Part shown: in pieces, positions 30,897 to 37,184 of the stretch
How the letters are laid out: each line of letters starts with the position of its first letter
How positions within the stretch are numbered: position 1 is the stretch's first letter
Source of the DNA: Hyphomicrobiales bacterium
GTDB taxonomy: Bacteria; Pseudomonadota; Alphaproteobacteria; Rhizobiales; Rhizobiaceae
Assembly: GCA_900467685.1 (NCBI GenBank)
Contig: UBQX01000026.1
Span: 102,625-145,894, forward strand
Direction of reading: 5' to 3'
DNA: 43,270 nucleotides
The notes under the pieces: generated by a model
What the model was told of the DNA's origin: nothing
What the model saw: only the letters and a program-made list of their open reading frames with translations
Databases searched by the model: none
Made by a program: the position numbers and the translations under genes

Positions 30897-31004
30897 CCGT
30901 CATCCTCTGGCTTGTCCAGAGGATCTGCACCGGAAGAATTTCTGCTGCACCGTCAATTGCTTGGCTTCGTTCGTAGATCCTCGGGACAGGCCCGAGGATG
31001 ACGG
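30897..31004. repeat. 108-bp intergenic element with imperfect 32-bp terminal inverted repeats
   Basis: The left end (30897-30928) begins CCGTCATCCTCTGG and the right end (30973-31004) finishes CCGAGGATGACGG; they are complementary over 32 positions with a few mismatches. Each end is itself palindromic (CCTCTGG..TCCAGAGG; CCTCGGG..CCCGAGG). GTCATCCTCGGG-type palindromes are, to my knowledge, common between genes in alphaproteobacteria. It separates the convergent truA and the membrane-protein gene. Confidence 0.7.
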
Positions 31005-31020
31005 ACGAAAGGTTTAAGCC

Positions 31021-31614
31021 CTAAAGCGAAACCCCGAGAAAATCATTCAGCCAAACCGAGGCCAGCATCGACGGGATGACGGACGCCGCCGTCAGCACGG
31101 CGGCCTCGCTCCACTGCCGTTTCGCCAGCATGTAGAACACCGCAAATTGCGCGGCGACGATGGCGATGAGCTGCATCTGGAGGACATAGTACCAGAAGGC
31201 GAGCGGGAGCGGCAGAATGAGTTCGAGGATCGCGACGCTGCCGGTGACGACATAGATCGCCACGTTCAGCCAGTTCATGACGACGATCATGGGATCGAAG
31301 AGGCGGCTCGTGCCCCGCAGATACATGGCGAGCCCCACCGTCAGATAGGGCAGGAACCAGAGGCTGAGTTCGATCAGCGCCATGCGCAGATAAAAGAGCC
31401 CGCCGGAAACCGCGCCGGGGACGGAATAATCGACGAAGATGCCGTGCCACCAGATCCAGTTGGGGATCATCAGCGGGAAGCACCAGAGGATCGCCCAGAA
31501 GGAGCGGCGCAGGCCGCGCTCGCTCAGGTCCAGCCACTGGAAACCCTGCGGCTTCAGGCTGACGAGCAGCCGGATGCCCTTGAGATAATGCAGGACTTCC
31601 TCAAGCGGCGGCAT
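31021..31614 (-). CDS. conserved multi-span membrane protein of unknown function
   Basis: A 197-residue, strongly hydrophobic protein with four or five predicted spans: FWAILWCFPLMIPNWIWW, LFYLRMALIELSLWFLPYLTVGLAMYL, VVMNWLNVAIYVVTGSVAILELILPLPLAFWYYVLQMQLIAIVAAQFAVFYML, and AAVLTAASVIPSMLASVWL. I recognise no catalytic motif. The ATG at 31614 overlaps the dapE stop by 14 nt; a TTG at 31623 is an alternative. As it is coupled to dapE it is probably co-expressed with it. In other rhizobia I recall a similar uncharacterised membrane protein beside dapE, but this is from memory. Confidence 0.8.
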   Translation of the reverse strand: MPPLEEVLHYLKGIRLLVSLKPQGFQWLDLSERGLRRSFWAILWCFPLMIPNWIWWHGIFVDYSVPGAVSGGLFYLRMALIELSLWFLPYLTVGLAMYLRGTSRLFDPMIVVMNWLNVAIYVVTGSVAILELILPLPLAFWYYVLQMQLIAIVAAQFAVFYMLAKRQWSEAAVLTAASVIPSMLASVWLNDFLGVSL

Positions 31615-32803
31615 GCGCGGCAAACCATTCGCGGATGAAGGTCTCGTAGATCTGGGTCAGCGTTTCGAGATCGGCAAGCGCCACGCATTCATCGACCATA
31701 TGCATGGTCTGGCCGACAAGGCCGAATTCCACCACCGGGCAATAATCCTTGATAAAGCGCGCATCCGATGTGCCGCCCGTCGTCGAAAGCGCCGGCTTGC
31801 GGCCCGTCACGCGCTCCACCGCGGCAGAGAGCGAAGCGATCAGCGGCTCGTTGCGCGTCAGGAACACATGGCTCGGCCGCTCCGACCAGGTGATGTCGAA
31901 GCGCACGGGCGGGCGGCCCTCGCGAAGCGCACCCTCGGCCGCGGCCTTGTTGAGCCGGCGAAGGATCTCTTCCTTCACGCTGTCTGCCGTCCAGGTGTCG
32001 TTGAAGCGGATGTTGAAGATGGCGCTGGCGCGCGCAGGAATGACATTCGTCGCCTTGTTGCCGACATCGATGCTGGTCACTTCCAGATTGGTCGGCGGGA
32101 AGGCGTCGGTGCCGGCGTCAAACGGCGGATCCATCAGCGCCTGGGTGAGCTGCAGAATGCCGCGCACGGGATTGTCGGCGAGATGCTGATAGGCCGCATG
32201 GCCCTGCACGCCATGCACGGTGAGAAACCCTGAGACCGAGCCGCGCCGGCCGATCTTGATCATGTCGCCTAAGCAGTCCGGATTGGTCGGCTCGCCGACA
32301 AGGCAGGCATCCCAGCGCTCGCCGGCGGCTGCCATGCGCTCCAGAAGCTTGACCGTGCCATTGACCGCCGGCCCCTCCTCGTCGCCGGTGATGAGGAAGG
32401 AGACGGAGCCTTTCGGCGCCCCATCCTTCGCGATCACGCGGGCAAGGGCCGCGACGAAACAGGCAACGCCGCCCTTCATGTCGACCGCGCCGCGGCCATA
32501 CATCATGCCGCCGGCAATCTCGGCCGCAAAGGGCGGATGCGTCCACGCCGCCTCGTCGCCCACGGGCACGACATCGGTATGCCCCGCAAACATCAGATGC
32601 GGCCCGGACGTGCCCAGCCGCGCATAAAGATTCTCGATATCCGGCGTCCCCGCCTCCCGCTCCACCGCCCGCGTCACCTTGAAACCCAGGGGTTCCAGCA
32701 TAGAAGCCAACGCCGACAAAGCTCCGCCTTCGGCAGGCGTGACGGACGGGCAGCGAATGAGGGAGCTGAGGTTTTCGGCGGGATCGGAGAGGGTGTTCGT
32801 CAT
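31601..32803 (-). CDS. dapE: succinyl-diaminopimelate desuccinylase
   Basis: A 400-residue dizinc hydrolase of the M20 family that frees LL-diaminopimelate and succinate in lysine and peptidoglycan synthesis. FAGHTDVVP (His75), GRGAVDMKGG (Asp108) and TGDEEGPA (Glu142 catalytic, Glu143 ligand) form the metal centre. TTGGTSDARFI and GLVGQTMHMVDECV complete it. The frame is open to 32878, but the ATG at 32803 (MTNTLSDPAENLSSLIRCPS) aligns with usual starts; neither has a convincing ribosome binding site. Together with dapD it points to the succinylase route. The membrane-protein gene follows in overlap. Confidence 0.95.
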   Translation of the reverse strand: MTNTLSDPAENLSSLIRCPSVTPAEGGALSALASMLEPLGFKVTRAVEREAGTPDIENLYARLGTSGPHLMFAGHTDVVPVGDEAAWTHPPFAAEIAGGMMYGRGAVDMKGGVACFVAALARVIAKDGAPKGSVSFLITGDEEGPAVNGTVKLLERMAAAGERWDACLVGEPTNPDCLGDMIKIGRRGSVSGFLTVHGVQGHAAYQHLADNPVRGILQLTQALMDPPFDAGTDAFPPTNLEVTSIDVGNKATNVIPARASAIFNIRFNDTWTADSVKEEILRRLNKAAAEGALREGRPPVRFDITWSERPSHVFLTRNEPLIASLSAAVERVTGRKPALSTTGGTSDARFIKDYCPVVEFGLVGQTMHMVDECVALADLETLTQIYETFIREWFAAHAAA

Positions 32804-32932
32804 GGGAAGAGGGTTAGCCGATTGGGGCTTGGGTGTCATCAGGGATTTTGGGGGTGGGTGGTGCCGCAGGTGAGGCATTCAACATATTCGCCCAACGCGG
32901 ACAAAAACTCAGGTGGGCGGAAACACGCAGCG

Positions 32933-33004: not shown

Positions 33005-36000
33005 ATGTCTGGTTTAGTAGAGATCATGTCCACGTCCGGTCCCCGCCTTCCTCCTCTTCCACCACTTAGCCAAATCCTTCCCGATGGAACAGAAGGCGGA
33101 AAAGAGTTCGGGCGGATTATAGATCTTCTTCTTTTCAACGAATGGAGAGGCGAAGGGAATAAATTCCAGCCGCTTGACGATGCATCAGGAGATTTTCGTG
33201 GCCTGGACAGTTATCGCTATGGCAGACGCGGCAACAAGATAACCGGATATCAGTATAAATTTTACAAATCGCCTCTTAGCGATCAGCATCGAAGCCTCAT
33301 CGCGAAGGCAATTGAGCAGGCGGCTGAGAACTCGGAAAACAAGATGTCGACGTACGTACTGGTAACTCCAGACGACTTGACAAACTCAGCGAAGCGAAAA
33401 ACTGGAGGCGACATAGTTTGGTTTGAAAAACTTCGGGAAAAGTATCGTTCTCGCTTTCAGATCGAGCATATTGGGCACACAAAAATTATCGCGATGTTCT
33501 TAAAGGCTAGGCATCTCTGCCTATTCTATTATCCTTCTCTTGTTCAACTCGGCGAAGCTCGGATAAAATCGATACAGGAGGTTAGATCTCAATACGATGA
33601 CAACATGCGACGCAGATTTGGCCGTATCGAATTTGTCGGCATGTCAGTCTACAAAGAAGAAGCTTCTCGCCGCGTTCCTTTAGAAAAGATTTACATCCCA
33701 TTATCTCTCGTTCCCGAAGCTTCGCCAGAAGAAAACGACGACACACCTCGAATCGAACCTCCTTCACTGCTTGCTCCGGGAAATAAGGCTGTTATTCTTG
33801 GCGATCCGGGCTCTGGAAAATCGACCCTTGTTTCATTTCTTTCGCTAGTTGGGATAACTCCCGCGCTTCAGCAGCGATGTGAGGGTGCCGCTGATAATCG
33901 TCTACCCATTGTCATAACATTAAGACGATACGCCGACGAAATAAAGACACGCAGAAATCTATCGATAATAGATTATATTGTTGAAAGCGTTCAGGCGGAC
34001 TTCAATATAGTTGCGGCAAGTAAGGACTTTTTTGAAGCCTACATTGAAAGTGGCAGAGCTATAATTTTCTTCGACGGACTCGACGAACTTCCGGGGGCTC
34101 ATTTCAAGGGACTGATGAGGCGCCGGATAGATTCTTTCTGCACTAGTTACCCTGTCAATACCGTCATAGTGACTTCTCGTATTGTTGGCTACGAAGCGGA
34201 TATTCGCTTCGATACCCCATATCGACACTATAGGGTTGCCAAGCTTCGTCTAAACGAAATCGAGTCATTTGTTTCGGACTGGTACAGTCAAAGGATCACT
34301 GAAGATGTTGAGCGGGATAAAAACATCAATGACCTTGTTAAGGTAATAAAAAATCCAGATAACGACGCTATCCGAGATTTATCCAGGAATCCGCTTCTTC
34401 TGACAATAGTTACGCTCGTTCACAGGATAGACGCAGTTCTACCAGATCAAAGAGTTGTATTATATCAGAAATGCACGGAAACCTTGCTTAATACATGGAC
34501 TAAGGCAAAAAGACAGAATGATGAGCCTGTAAAAGGCCGCATCGAACAACGTAATCGGCTAAGAGTCGAAGCCATCGCCTACTGGATGCATCGAAATAGT
34601 CTTCAAGCCAAAGGTCGCGCTGTCGCTCCGCATGATGAAATCGTAAAATTTTTGACTGAGCATATTGAAAAGAAAGAAAAAAAGCGCGATCGCGACGAGC
34701 CTTCTGAGGATCAAGCCGAAGAGTTTTTTGCCTTTGTAAAGTCATCGGCTGGCCTGATGATCGAAGCTGGCGACGGCCTTTACAGCTTTATTCACCTGAC
34801 ATTCCAAGAATATCTGTCTGCCACTTATCTAACCACATACGGGGAGGTTGGCGGAGCGCAATCTATTTGGAATGAGTTGGACGGCGATCTAGAAAATCCC
34901 CGCTGGCGAGAGGTCGTAAGGTTGCTCGTCGCCAGCCTAAAGTCTGCAGCTGCTCAGGGCTTTTTCGTAGAGAAGCTATGTGAAGCGAACCTTCAAAATC
35001 CTTCACGTGACTGCACATTGTTACTGCTCGGGCTTCTCAGGGATGGAATTGAACCGGCCGAAGAGAAATCTGAACAAATCTGCATTCAAGTGTTTGATAT
35101 TCTTCTAAAGACGCCGTCCTCTGACGATATACGCACTATAAACACAGCTCTGAGGTCTTGGACACAAAAGGAACAATCGAACCTCGACACCGCCAGATTT
35201 GTTTTTAACCGCAAGTTTCAAGAAGTGGCCGCACCTGAAAAGCTCACTTTGGCGTTGATTAACCAAAGCGCCGAGCTCGGGCCGCTCGATGTGGAGCTTC
35301 GGTCCGATATCGACTATGGCAACAACAGAGTTGTAGAGCCTCTTCTATTTGGGTCGGGCGGGACCAGATCGGCCGCGCCGATTTGGGGCGAAATGTATTT
35401 AAGGCAGACTATCGATGCGTTTCACGATCCCGATTCGAATGCAGCTTCAGCAATTGGTTTAGGAATTTCGATCTTACTCGATCCGACTGAAGTGCCAGCG
35501 CGATTATTGGGTCGCAGTCTCAGCCTTCTAAGTAGTATCGGGCGTGGTCCACATCACGACTATGCCATGAATCTAATTGCACTGGCCGGAGATGCCAATC
35601 TTCATTCATCGTTGCGAGATTCCCTATCGTATTGCCTCAACCCAAAAAACGGATACGACGAGCGAATCGAGCGCGGTCATCTAATTGATGAGTTCTTTAA
35701 ATTTTGGTTGAGTCGCTCTCCAGAATTTGGCGGCGCTCGCGATGAGCATTCACTAAGCGAAGCTGTCCAGCAGCGCTTGCGGCTTTTTTATAGAAAGCCA
35801 AGAAGTAGAGCCGGACTTCCCGGAACGCCAAAGGATGGCACGCCCAAACGCACTCGCGAAATGAGCATGATTAGACGCTCCGTCAAGACTGTAAGCCTGG
35901 ACGCAGGGATTTATACACGTATGATCTTGGCGTCTGACGTGATGAGGGAAGGGATAGTACCCTCGATTGTAAAAGAAATGAATTTGGCCCCAGCGGGTCA

Positions 36001-36400
36001 TTGGGAAGAAGCTCTGAAAGCGACGTTGAGCACATTGGTGCCACAAGCTATTAGCAAATATCTGGATTTCTCAGAGTGGCAAGCTCTCGGGATGCGTTTG
36101 TCAACAAGCGATGCCACAGAAGATGATCTGAATTGGGCTTCTTGGCTGGTATTGTTGGATATTTGGATTCGCGCTAACCGTGCTTCTTCAACTGAGGAGC
36201 CAACTGGATTGGAGGACCTGCTGAGTGTTTCGAAGGCATGCACCTACGACCCGCTACAGTTTGCTCTAGCGTTCAGAGACATGTACTTAGGCTACGACTC
36301 CAGCCTCAAGAATGCCCTGGAAATTTGCGAGAAAAGTGGTTCGCTTGCCTATAAGTTATTGGTCTCAGCAGGTTGGCCAGAGTGGGTCAGTTTTTCCTGA
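33005..36400 (+). CDS. NACHT-domain STAND NTPase with Mrr-like N-terminal region (candidate NLR-like antiphage protein)
   Basis: A 1131-residue protein. Residues 30-180 resemble a restriction-endonuclease-like domain: [13 protein letters not shown] (Glu34), DFRGLDSY (Asp68) and GYQYKFY (Gln83-x-Lys85), the D-QxK pattern of Mrr enzymes. The NACHT core spans about 255-470: Walker A GDPGSGKS (266-273), [10 protein letters not shown] (353-362), [10 protein letters not shown] (sensor 1) and [10 protein letters not shown] (461-469). [15 protein letters not shown] (595-609) is the winged-helix end typical of NACHT proteins. Residues 640-1131 are helical, without a recognisable family, and probably sense the trigger. 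Codons are AT-richer (TTA, ATA, AGA frequent) than in all neighbours, indicating transfer. A later ATG (33026) may be the true start given the promoter. Antiphage function is inferred. Confidence 0.85.
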
Positions 36401-36560
36401 GCATAGCAATAAGCTAGATGGTTCGAAGCTTTTTCGCTTTGTCTCCTTTCTTATAACATATGCCGGACATCCTCCAACCCGGTGCCCCACTCACCCACTC
36501 TTGCCTTCCCTCCCCCACCCCACAAAACCCTTCCGCACCACCACAACCGGAGACCGCCCC
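36401..36560 (+). promoter_or_regulatory. leader region of cmk
   Basis: 160 bp between the NACHT stop and cmk. The first 60 bp are AT-rich with TATAAC at 36452-36457, a possible -10 without a clear -35. The second half is C-rich, a composition break that may mark the edge of the inserted NACHT gene. GGAG 9 nt before the cmk ATG is its ribosome binding site. No terminator is evident for the NACHT gene. Confidence 0.35.
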
Positions 36561-37184
36561 ATGCCAGTCATCGCCATCGACGGACCCGCCGCAGCAGGCA
36601 AGGGCACGCTTTCGCGGCGGATTGCGGAGGACTATGGGTTTCATCATCTCGATACCGGGCTGACCTATCGCGCCTGCGCCAAGGCGCTGCTGGATGCCGG
36701 GTTGCCGCTGGATGATGAGGCCCAGGCGGCCGACATGGCGGCAAAGGTGGATCTTGGCGGGCTCGATCGGTCTGTGCTGTCGGCGCATGCGATTGGCGAG
36801 GCGGCGTCGAAGATTGCGGTGATGCCTTCGGTGCGGCGCGCGCTGGTCGAGGCGCAGCGGGCGTTTTCAGAACGCTTGCCCGGCACTGTGCTGGACGGGC
36901 GCGATATCGGGACGGTGGTGTGCCCGGATGCGACCGTGAAGCTCTATGTGACGGCCTCTGCGGAAGTGCGGGCGAAGCGGCGGTTTGACGAGATCGTGGC
37001 GGGTGGCGGTGAGGCTGAGTTCGAGGCGGTTCTCGCCGATGTGGTCAAGCGCGACGAGCGCGACATGAACCGCGCCGACAGCCCTTTGAAACCGGCGGAC
37101 GATGCGCACTTGATCGATACGACCGAAATGGGTATAGAGGCCGCATTCCAGGCGGCGAAACGTCTCATCGACGCTGCCTTGTAA
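36561..37184 (+). CDS. cmk: cytidylate kinase
   Basis: A 207-residue cytosolic NMP kinase that converts CMP and dCMP to diphosphates. The P-loop is GPAAAGKGT (8-16), then the family segment [35 protein letters not shown] is the signature of bacterial CMP kinases, followed by RRFDEI and the LID arginines ([25 protein letters not shown]). The open frame extends upstream, but GGAG before the ATG at 36561 and the family alignment fix the start. It precedes rpsA, the usual cmk-rpsA order; the commonly upstream aroA is not present here. Confidence 0.95.

Follow-up and report, generated by a model that had tools for sequence, protein, structure and literature searches.

A NACHT protein with a predicted nuclease effector in a variable dapE-cmk interval of a Rhizobiaceae genome

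What is a single large gene of unusual composition doing between dapE (minus strand) and the cmk-rpsA pair (plus strand) of a Rhizobiaceae genome? The window analysed here, 43,270 nucleotides of a Hyphomicrobiales bacterium contig, carries at this place an intact reading frame of 1131 amino acids with an ATG start, which an initial annotation made from the letters alone had taken for a horizontally acquired, one-gene antiphage system built on a NACHT ATPase. Our analysis leads to a similar reading. With a probability of roughly 0.8, the gene encodes a stand-alone NACHT (STAND-type) immune ATPase that is related to the animal NLRs, carries a nuclease effector, was horizontally acquired and is of the same kind as bNACHT25 and bNACHT32. 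Computation gave a three-part protein with a nuclease fold and motif, a conserved switch and a diverging C-terminus, sporadically distributed and located at a variable site.

The reading frame itself is real, as had been claimed: it runs from ATG to stop over the whole of 33005-36400, and no open run longer than 188 codons arises when this stretch is base-shuffled 300 times. Translation may instead start at M8 (33026), near which the relatives have their first residue. The AT-richer codons reported for the gene are also borne out, since its GC3 is 0.462 (overall GC 0.475) and that of the nine other reading frames measured in the window is 0.605-0.833, and the sliding GC content drops from about 0.63 to 0.45-0.50 across the gene. 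The features of the locus are as follows.

33005-36400, plus strand: gene for the nuclease-NACHT-helical (presumed) sensor protein, 1131 amino acids (reading frame, profile matches, alignment)
33086-33529, plus strand: predicted PD-(D/E)xK nuclease-fold effector, residues 28-175 (Avs2 profile, model, fold matches, alignment)
33791-34291, plus strand: NACHT ATPase, residues 263-429 (Walker A, DGLDE and TSR motifs)
34787-34816, plus strand: ten-residue winged-helix stretch common to NLRP3, residues 595-604 (alignment, profile match)
34922-36397, plus strand: all-helical C-terminus in the model, presumed sensor, residues 640-1131 (model helices; residues 701-1131 least conserved)
36424-36441, plus strand: terminator-like hairpin 3' of the NACHT stop codon, weak (8 such sites in the region against 3.7 expected)
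31601-32878, minus strand: dapE, left flank, with its likely start codon at 32803
36561-37184, plus strand: cmk, right flank (reading frame, profile match)
32832-32861, no strand: left boundary of the variable interval, 5' of the likely dapE start codon (comparison with congeners)
36494-36532, no strand: right boundary of the variable interval, 5' of cmk (comparison with congeners)

The central part of the protein is a NACHT switch. The Pfam profile PF05729 matches it at 31.2 bits against a cut-off of 26.7, and Walker A (GDPGSGKS, 266-273), DGLDE (357-361), TSR (390-392) and the ten-residue stretch lie at the positions first given for them. This is the only full-length profile match to the protein, which counts against the immune reading; NACHT is matched in eight of the nine family members at E<=0.5 in a Pfam scan, and the gene is the sole NACHT match above the cut-off in its own genome, where a second match falls below it. 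A structure model of the whole protein (pLDDT 72.1, pTM 0.53) finds its best folds among the animal NLRs, with 36 chains at E<=0.001 (best 6e-7) that include NLRP3, NOD2, NLRP1, NLRP7, NAIP5 and NLRC4 as well as Avs4, so that the NACHT/NLR-like identity proposed for the protein is upheld by profile and model together. Two points count against the immune reading: among the matches listed, the TM-scores with NLRs over the whole length reach only 0.13-0.20 by query, which is low, and the NACHT part of the model is of modest confidence.

The likeness to the animal NLRs NLRP3, NOD2 and NLRC4 consists of the order of folds, from NACHT to winged helix to HD2, and of the ten-residue stretch, which the switch still has in common with NLRP3 and to which the match of our family profile with the NLRP3 sequence is confined (E 0.0022). 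The NLRC4_HD2 profile is weakly matched in two of the nine members (best 0.0095). The differences are at the two ends: where animal NLRs have a death-fold domain, the bacterial protein has a predicted nuclease, and where they have leucine-rich repeats, its C-terminus is all helical in the model and therefore has none.

By fold and motif, the model indicates that residues ~28-175 are a nuclease-type effector of the PD-(D/E)xK class. The structure check proposed for residues 1-190, which we ran with AlphaFold on residues 1-194 (pLDDT 77.4, pTM 0.76), returned this fold, with a helix at 29-50, strands at 53-56, 69-72 and 79-84, a helix at 93-109 and a strand at 114-120. Foldseek matched it to EcoT38I (4.2e-4), Avs4 (6.6e-4) and EcoO109I (1.8e-3), and more weakly to Cdn1, DdmD, HerA-DUF, Hjc, Kpn2I and Cap4 (0.017-0.1); unrelated chains appear in the list from rank 9 on. 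The PADLOC Avs2 profile matches residues 49-139 (E 2.4e-5) and is matched by four of the nine family members, and a profile of the N-terminal part found no match at E<=10 among the sequences of solved structures. In the N-terminal alignment of eight members, from which one relative lacking this part (locus L009) is absent, E30, E34, D63, D68, Q83 and K85 are invariant in all eight.

The C-terminus is of another character. From about residue 598 on the whole-protein model is helical; block confidence there mostly exceeds 70, the exceptions lying near 781-800, 881-890 and 931-970 and in the last residues. The mean identity of the six diverged members to our protein drops from 0.40-0.81 in residues 1-700 to 0.12-0.32 in residues 701-1131, which suggests that across the family the effector and switch stay constant and the presumed sensor changes. 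The claim that this region has no recognisable family stands, as none was matched in the searches run and it remains an unclassified helical region; a profile of it gave only two weak matches among solved-structure sequences, both to multiprotein-bridging factor 1 (E 0.96 and 1.6). A Pfam scan of the nine members gives 17 families, with no NACHT-associated C-terminal one among them, in a Pfam copy that may not include NCH1. Short tandem residue repeats, such as ALDRALALDRA, occur in the variable C-terminal part of two relatives (L007 and L009), perhaps a fast-changing segment. Near-constant nucleases and switches with variable C-termini make the family well suited to studies of sensor specificity.

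The overall plan, in which a central NACHT lies between an N-terminal effector and a C-terminal presumed sensor, is by model and alignment that of bNACHT proteins. As described in PMC12169576, bNACHT25 and bNACHT32 (clade 6) combine an N-terminal PD-(D/E)XK DNase, a central NACHT and a helical C-terminus in one gene, mutation of their nuclease abolishes protection, and DNA is degraded on activation. The 1131-residue protein has a predicted N-terminal PD-(D/E)XK domain as clade 6 does, by fold and motif; the C-terminus of bNACHT25/32 is NCH1, and the likeness to them is judged from their described domain plan. Avs2 and Avs4 have the same order of nuclease, STAND and sensor, and their N-terminal profile and fold, respectively, match the effector, whereas our protein is shorter. 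Membership of known families was rejected in each case: the Avs2 match is limited to the N-terminus (31-117 of 1499 profile positions), Avs4 scores 10.3 bits against an NCBIfam equivalog cut-off of 1500, and EruA, a NACHT protein that NCBIfam annotates as antiphage, scores 18.2 bits against an equivalog cut-off of 1000 over residues 243-276 only. The class is a known one; no full-length model in Pfam, NCBIfam or PADLOC covers the family or its C-terminus.

From these studied relatives we infer how the protein may work. The helical C-terminus would hold it inactive and would sense a product of infection by phage or other foreign DNA. Once a trigger is bound there, the NACHT modules would exchange nucleotide and drive an ATP-dependent oligomerisation, gathering the N-terminal PD-(D/E)xK domains, which would then cut DNA, probably that of phage and host alike; a passage of PMC12931631 describes the Avs1-4 nucleases as cutting both genomes. 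Such cleavage would have an abortive outcome, and protection against phage is the role that analogy suggests for the 1131-residue protein.

Relatives are thinly but widely spread. Eight loci in the genome contigs searched encode them: the nearest copy, from Agrobacterium bohemicum, is 81% identical, those of Reyranella, Undibacterium, Pseudomonas, Ktedonospora (Chloroflexota) and Hatepunaea are 47-49% identical in the best segment, a Magnetococcales copy is 38% identical and a partial one from Aminicenantes 49%. The alignment of nine members is collinear except for L009 and its missing N-terminal part. At E<=1e-60, matches occur in four of 398 Pseudomonadota genomes, counting the window's own; of the remaining three, G239 seems, from its position and the length of its frame, to be the Magnetococcales locus that the alignment already contains. 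The only match among 394 genomes of the same family, and among 61 genomes of relatives, is the window's own. Among plasmids 93 records match, every one below 60% identity and short of 80% query coverage; in the 20 listed, the matched parts all fall within residues 138-695, and neither the N-terminal nor the C-terminal part alone has a plasmid match at E<=0.01. Phage records hold one match to the NACHT core at 21.7% identity, and a search of IMG/VR with the protein and the family alignment found no relative, which counts against our reading. With these relatives, the nuclease-armed bacterial kin of animal NLRs gain a coherent family.

In the tree, the window's copy pairs with that of A. bohemicum (100/100) and the six Pseudomonadota rows form one group (100/100), inside which the mixing of classes is modestly supported (81/82); the tree alone does not prove transfer between phyla. 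The A. bohemicum copy has other genes downstream (HTH_66/DUF433 and PIN_10) and a contig end about 0.9 kb upstream, and the two closest copies are therefore in different places. Synonymous change between them is saturated and pN is 0.115 (effector 0.102, switch 0.063, C-terminus 0.161), a pattern that speaks for purifying selection.

Selected neighbours of the relatives were scanned, a check of homologues and neighbourhoods that had been proposed, and some of the relatives lie beside defence genes. At L006 the relative lies 76 bases after an HKD-SNF2 helicase whose gene overlaps that of a type IIG enzyme, with an MkoA-like helicase further on, and at L009 an IetA-like ATPase (1.1e-75) lies about 0.8 kb downstream. 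L005 has a PDC-S36-like NOV_C protein, a ParA-like ATPase and a RelA/SpoT protein nearby, and at L049 the relative follows, after 225 bases, an AAA ATPase with generic PADLOC matches only. A HEPN/nucleotidyltransferase-like pair lies about 4 kb from the relative at L007, and a toxin-antitoxin-like pair is near that at L002. On the other side of the account, two neighbours scanned at L003 gave no defence match, the one scanned at L008 is not a defence gene, and the genes scanned at L004 include no specific defence neighbour, only an ABC-type protein with generic ATPase matches. A further relative, L050 (G112:C131, 7427-12395), precedes a subtilase gene by 41 bases and keeps the switch (228/555, 41%, query 182-726) with an N-terminus that has no similarity to ours, an apparent effector swap judged from sequence.

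The position of the gene in the genus adds to this picture. The five other genomes of the genus that we examined do not contain it, and in the congeners homology ends at window positions 32856-32861 and starts again at 36494-36518, with differing content between. Both the single-gene layout first suggested for the gene and a recent acquisition gain support from its absence there and from the other cargo in the same interval; the contrary picture, of a gene of normal composition at the same place in all relatives, with neither a defence link nor a NACHT match, is not what we found. In four of the six genomes (G000, G001, G004 and G005), dapE and cmk lie on the same contig with a single interval between them. 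In G000, the window's own genome, the interval is the NACHT gene. That of G005 holds an AAA ATPase and an HNH-like protein (PADLOC PDC-M01A 1.5e-228 and PDC-M01B 5.1e-106), followed by a 192-base partial copy of the 5' end of cmk and an oleate hydratase-family gene (PF06100), a non-defence cargo that counts against the immune reading. G004 has a DUF7380 protein (PDC-S39 3.6e-98) and, by eye, acetyltransferase-like reading frames, and G001 a 752-residue reading frame of about 45% GC (L035:2768-5026) that has no match in Pfam, PADLOC, plasmids or IMG/VR and is a candidate defence gene of unknown type. The alternative intact intervals thus carry a PADLOC candidate system, which is what its PDC entries denote, in two of three cases and a protein without a match in one. 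The G002 interval is broken by a contig end, with acetyltransferase-like and oleate hydratase-like reading frames before cmk (by eye), and in G003 the order is rearranged, with a Hypoth_Ymh protein (PADLOC PD-Lambda-3_B 1.5e-17) upstream of cmk. An empty site was not found among the six genomes.

If the protein is an immune ATPase with a nuclease, its target might be plasmids or integrating elements more than phages. L005 and L049 share an element backbone (a DUF927 protein 84% identical, 4.4 kb at 76%) with NACHT genes, 50% identical to each other, in the same slot, where they could serve against competitors. Yet phage proteins are what the nuclease-bearing NACHT and Avs relatives that have been studied respond to (PMC12169576, PMC12931631), and we consider such a preference unlikely. 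It is also conceivable that the protein has no immune role and serves in STAND signalling or in a stress response, its nuclease fold acting in regulation or in programmed death under stress. STAND proteins also have other roles, and the relatives at L003 and L004 lie among metabolic or unrelated genes. It would, however, be unusual for a housekeeping regulator to be sporadically distributed and foreign in composition, to carry a nuclease effector and to lie in a variable interval that holds candidate defence genes, which makes this explanation quite improbable.

The N-terminal domain could in turn have lost its nuclease activity and bind DNA or act as a scaffold, with another effect downstream. 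What favours this is the residue before xK, which is Q where (D/E)xK usually has D or E, and which we count against a nuclease-armed protein; but QxK is kept in all eight members that have the region, D68 and K85 are invariant, and QxK is usual in Mrr-type nucleases. We hold a loss of activity to be very improbable, and we retain the immune ATPase with a nuclease effector as the best explanation. A bolder version of it is tentative and, in our judgement, somewhat short of an even chance: this would be an undescribed NACHT family with a swappable effector (as in G112), whose C-terminus detects an infection signal other than those to which known Avs or bNACHT proteins respond, and the dapE-cmk site of the genus would be an unrecorded defence hotspot, with the 752-residue protein of G001 as a further system. 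Titles and abstract openings of the literature, a scope that leaves some main NACHT/AVAST papers outside, name neither the family nor the site. In either case the dapE-cmk interval is a small, well-defined place in which to seek further defence genes in the genus.

As to how the interval is filled, a tRNA as integration site was rejected for the window, whose only tRNA is at 274-350. The two edges resemble an imperfect inverted repeat, CCCACCCC-C-AAATCCCT. Shuffling attained its score twice in 3000 trials for G005 and 155 times in 3000 for G000, and of 2980 window pairs 0 and 4, respectively, did so; because the stretch is C-rich, the repeat is suggestive only. A dispersed genomic repeat as the insertion signal was rejected as well, as a 19-base edge pattern, matched six times in five genomes, falls at cmk or its partial copy in five of these cases; the reversed control gave two matches. 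Extra partial copies of the 5' end of cmk occur at L034:4660-4850 (G005; the 192-base copy, 93%) and at L037:2028-2093 (G002; 73 columns, 78%), and are perhaps footprints of serial insertion at the site. Elsewhere in the window, a repeat of ~105 bases after truA (about 30897-31005) has many copies in the same genome and in relatives.
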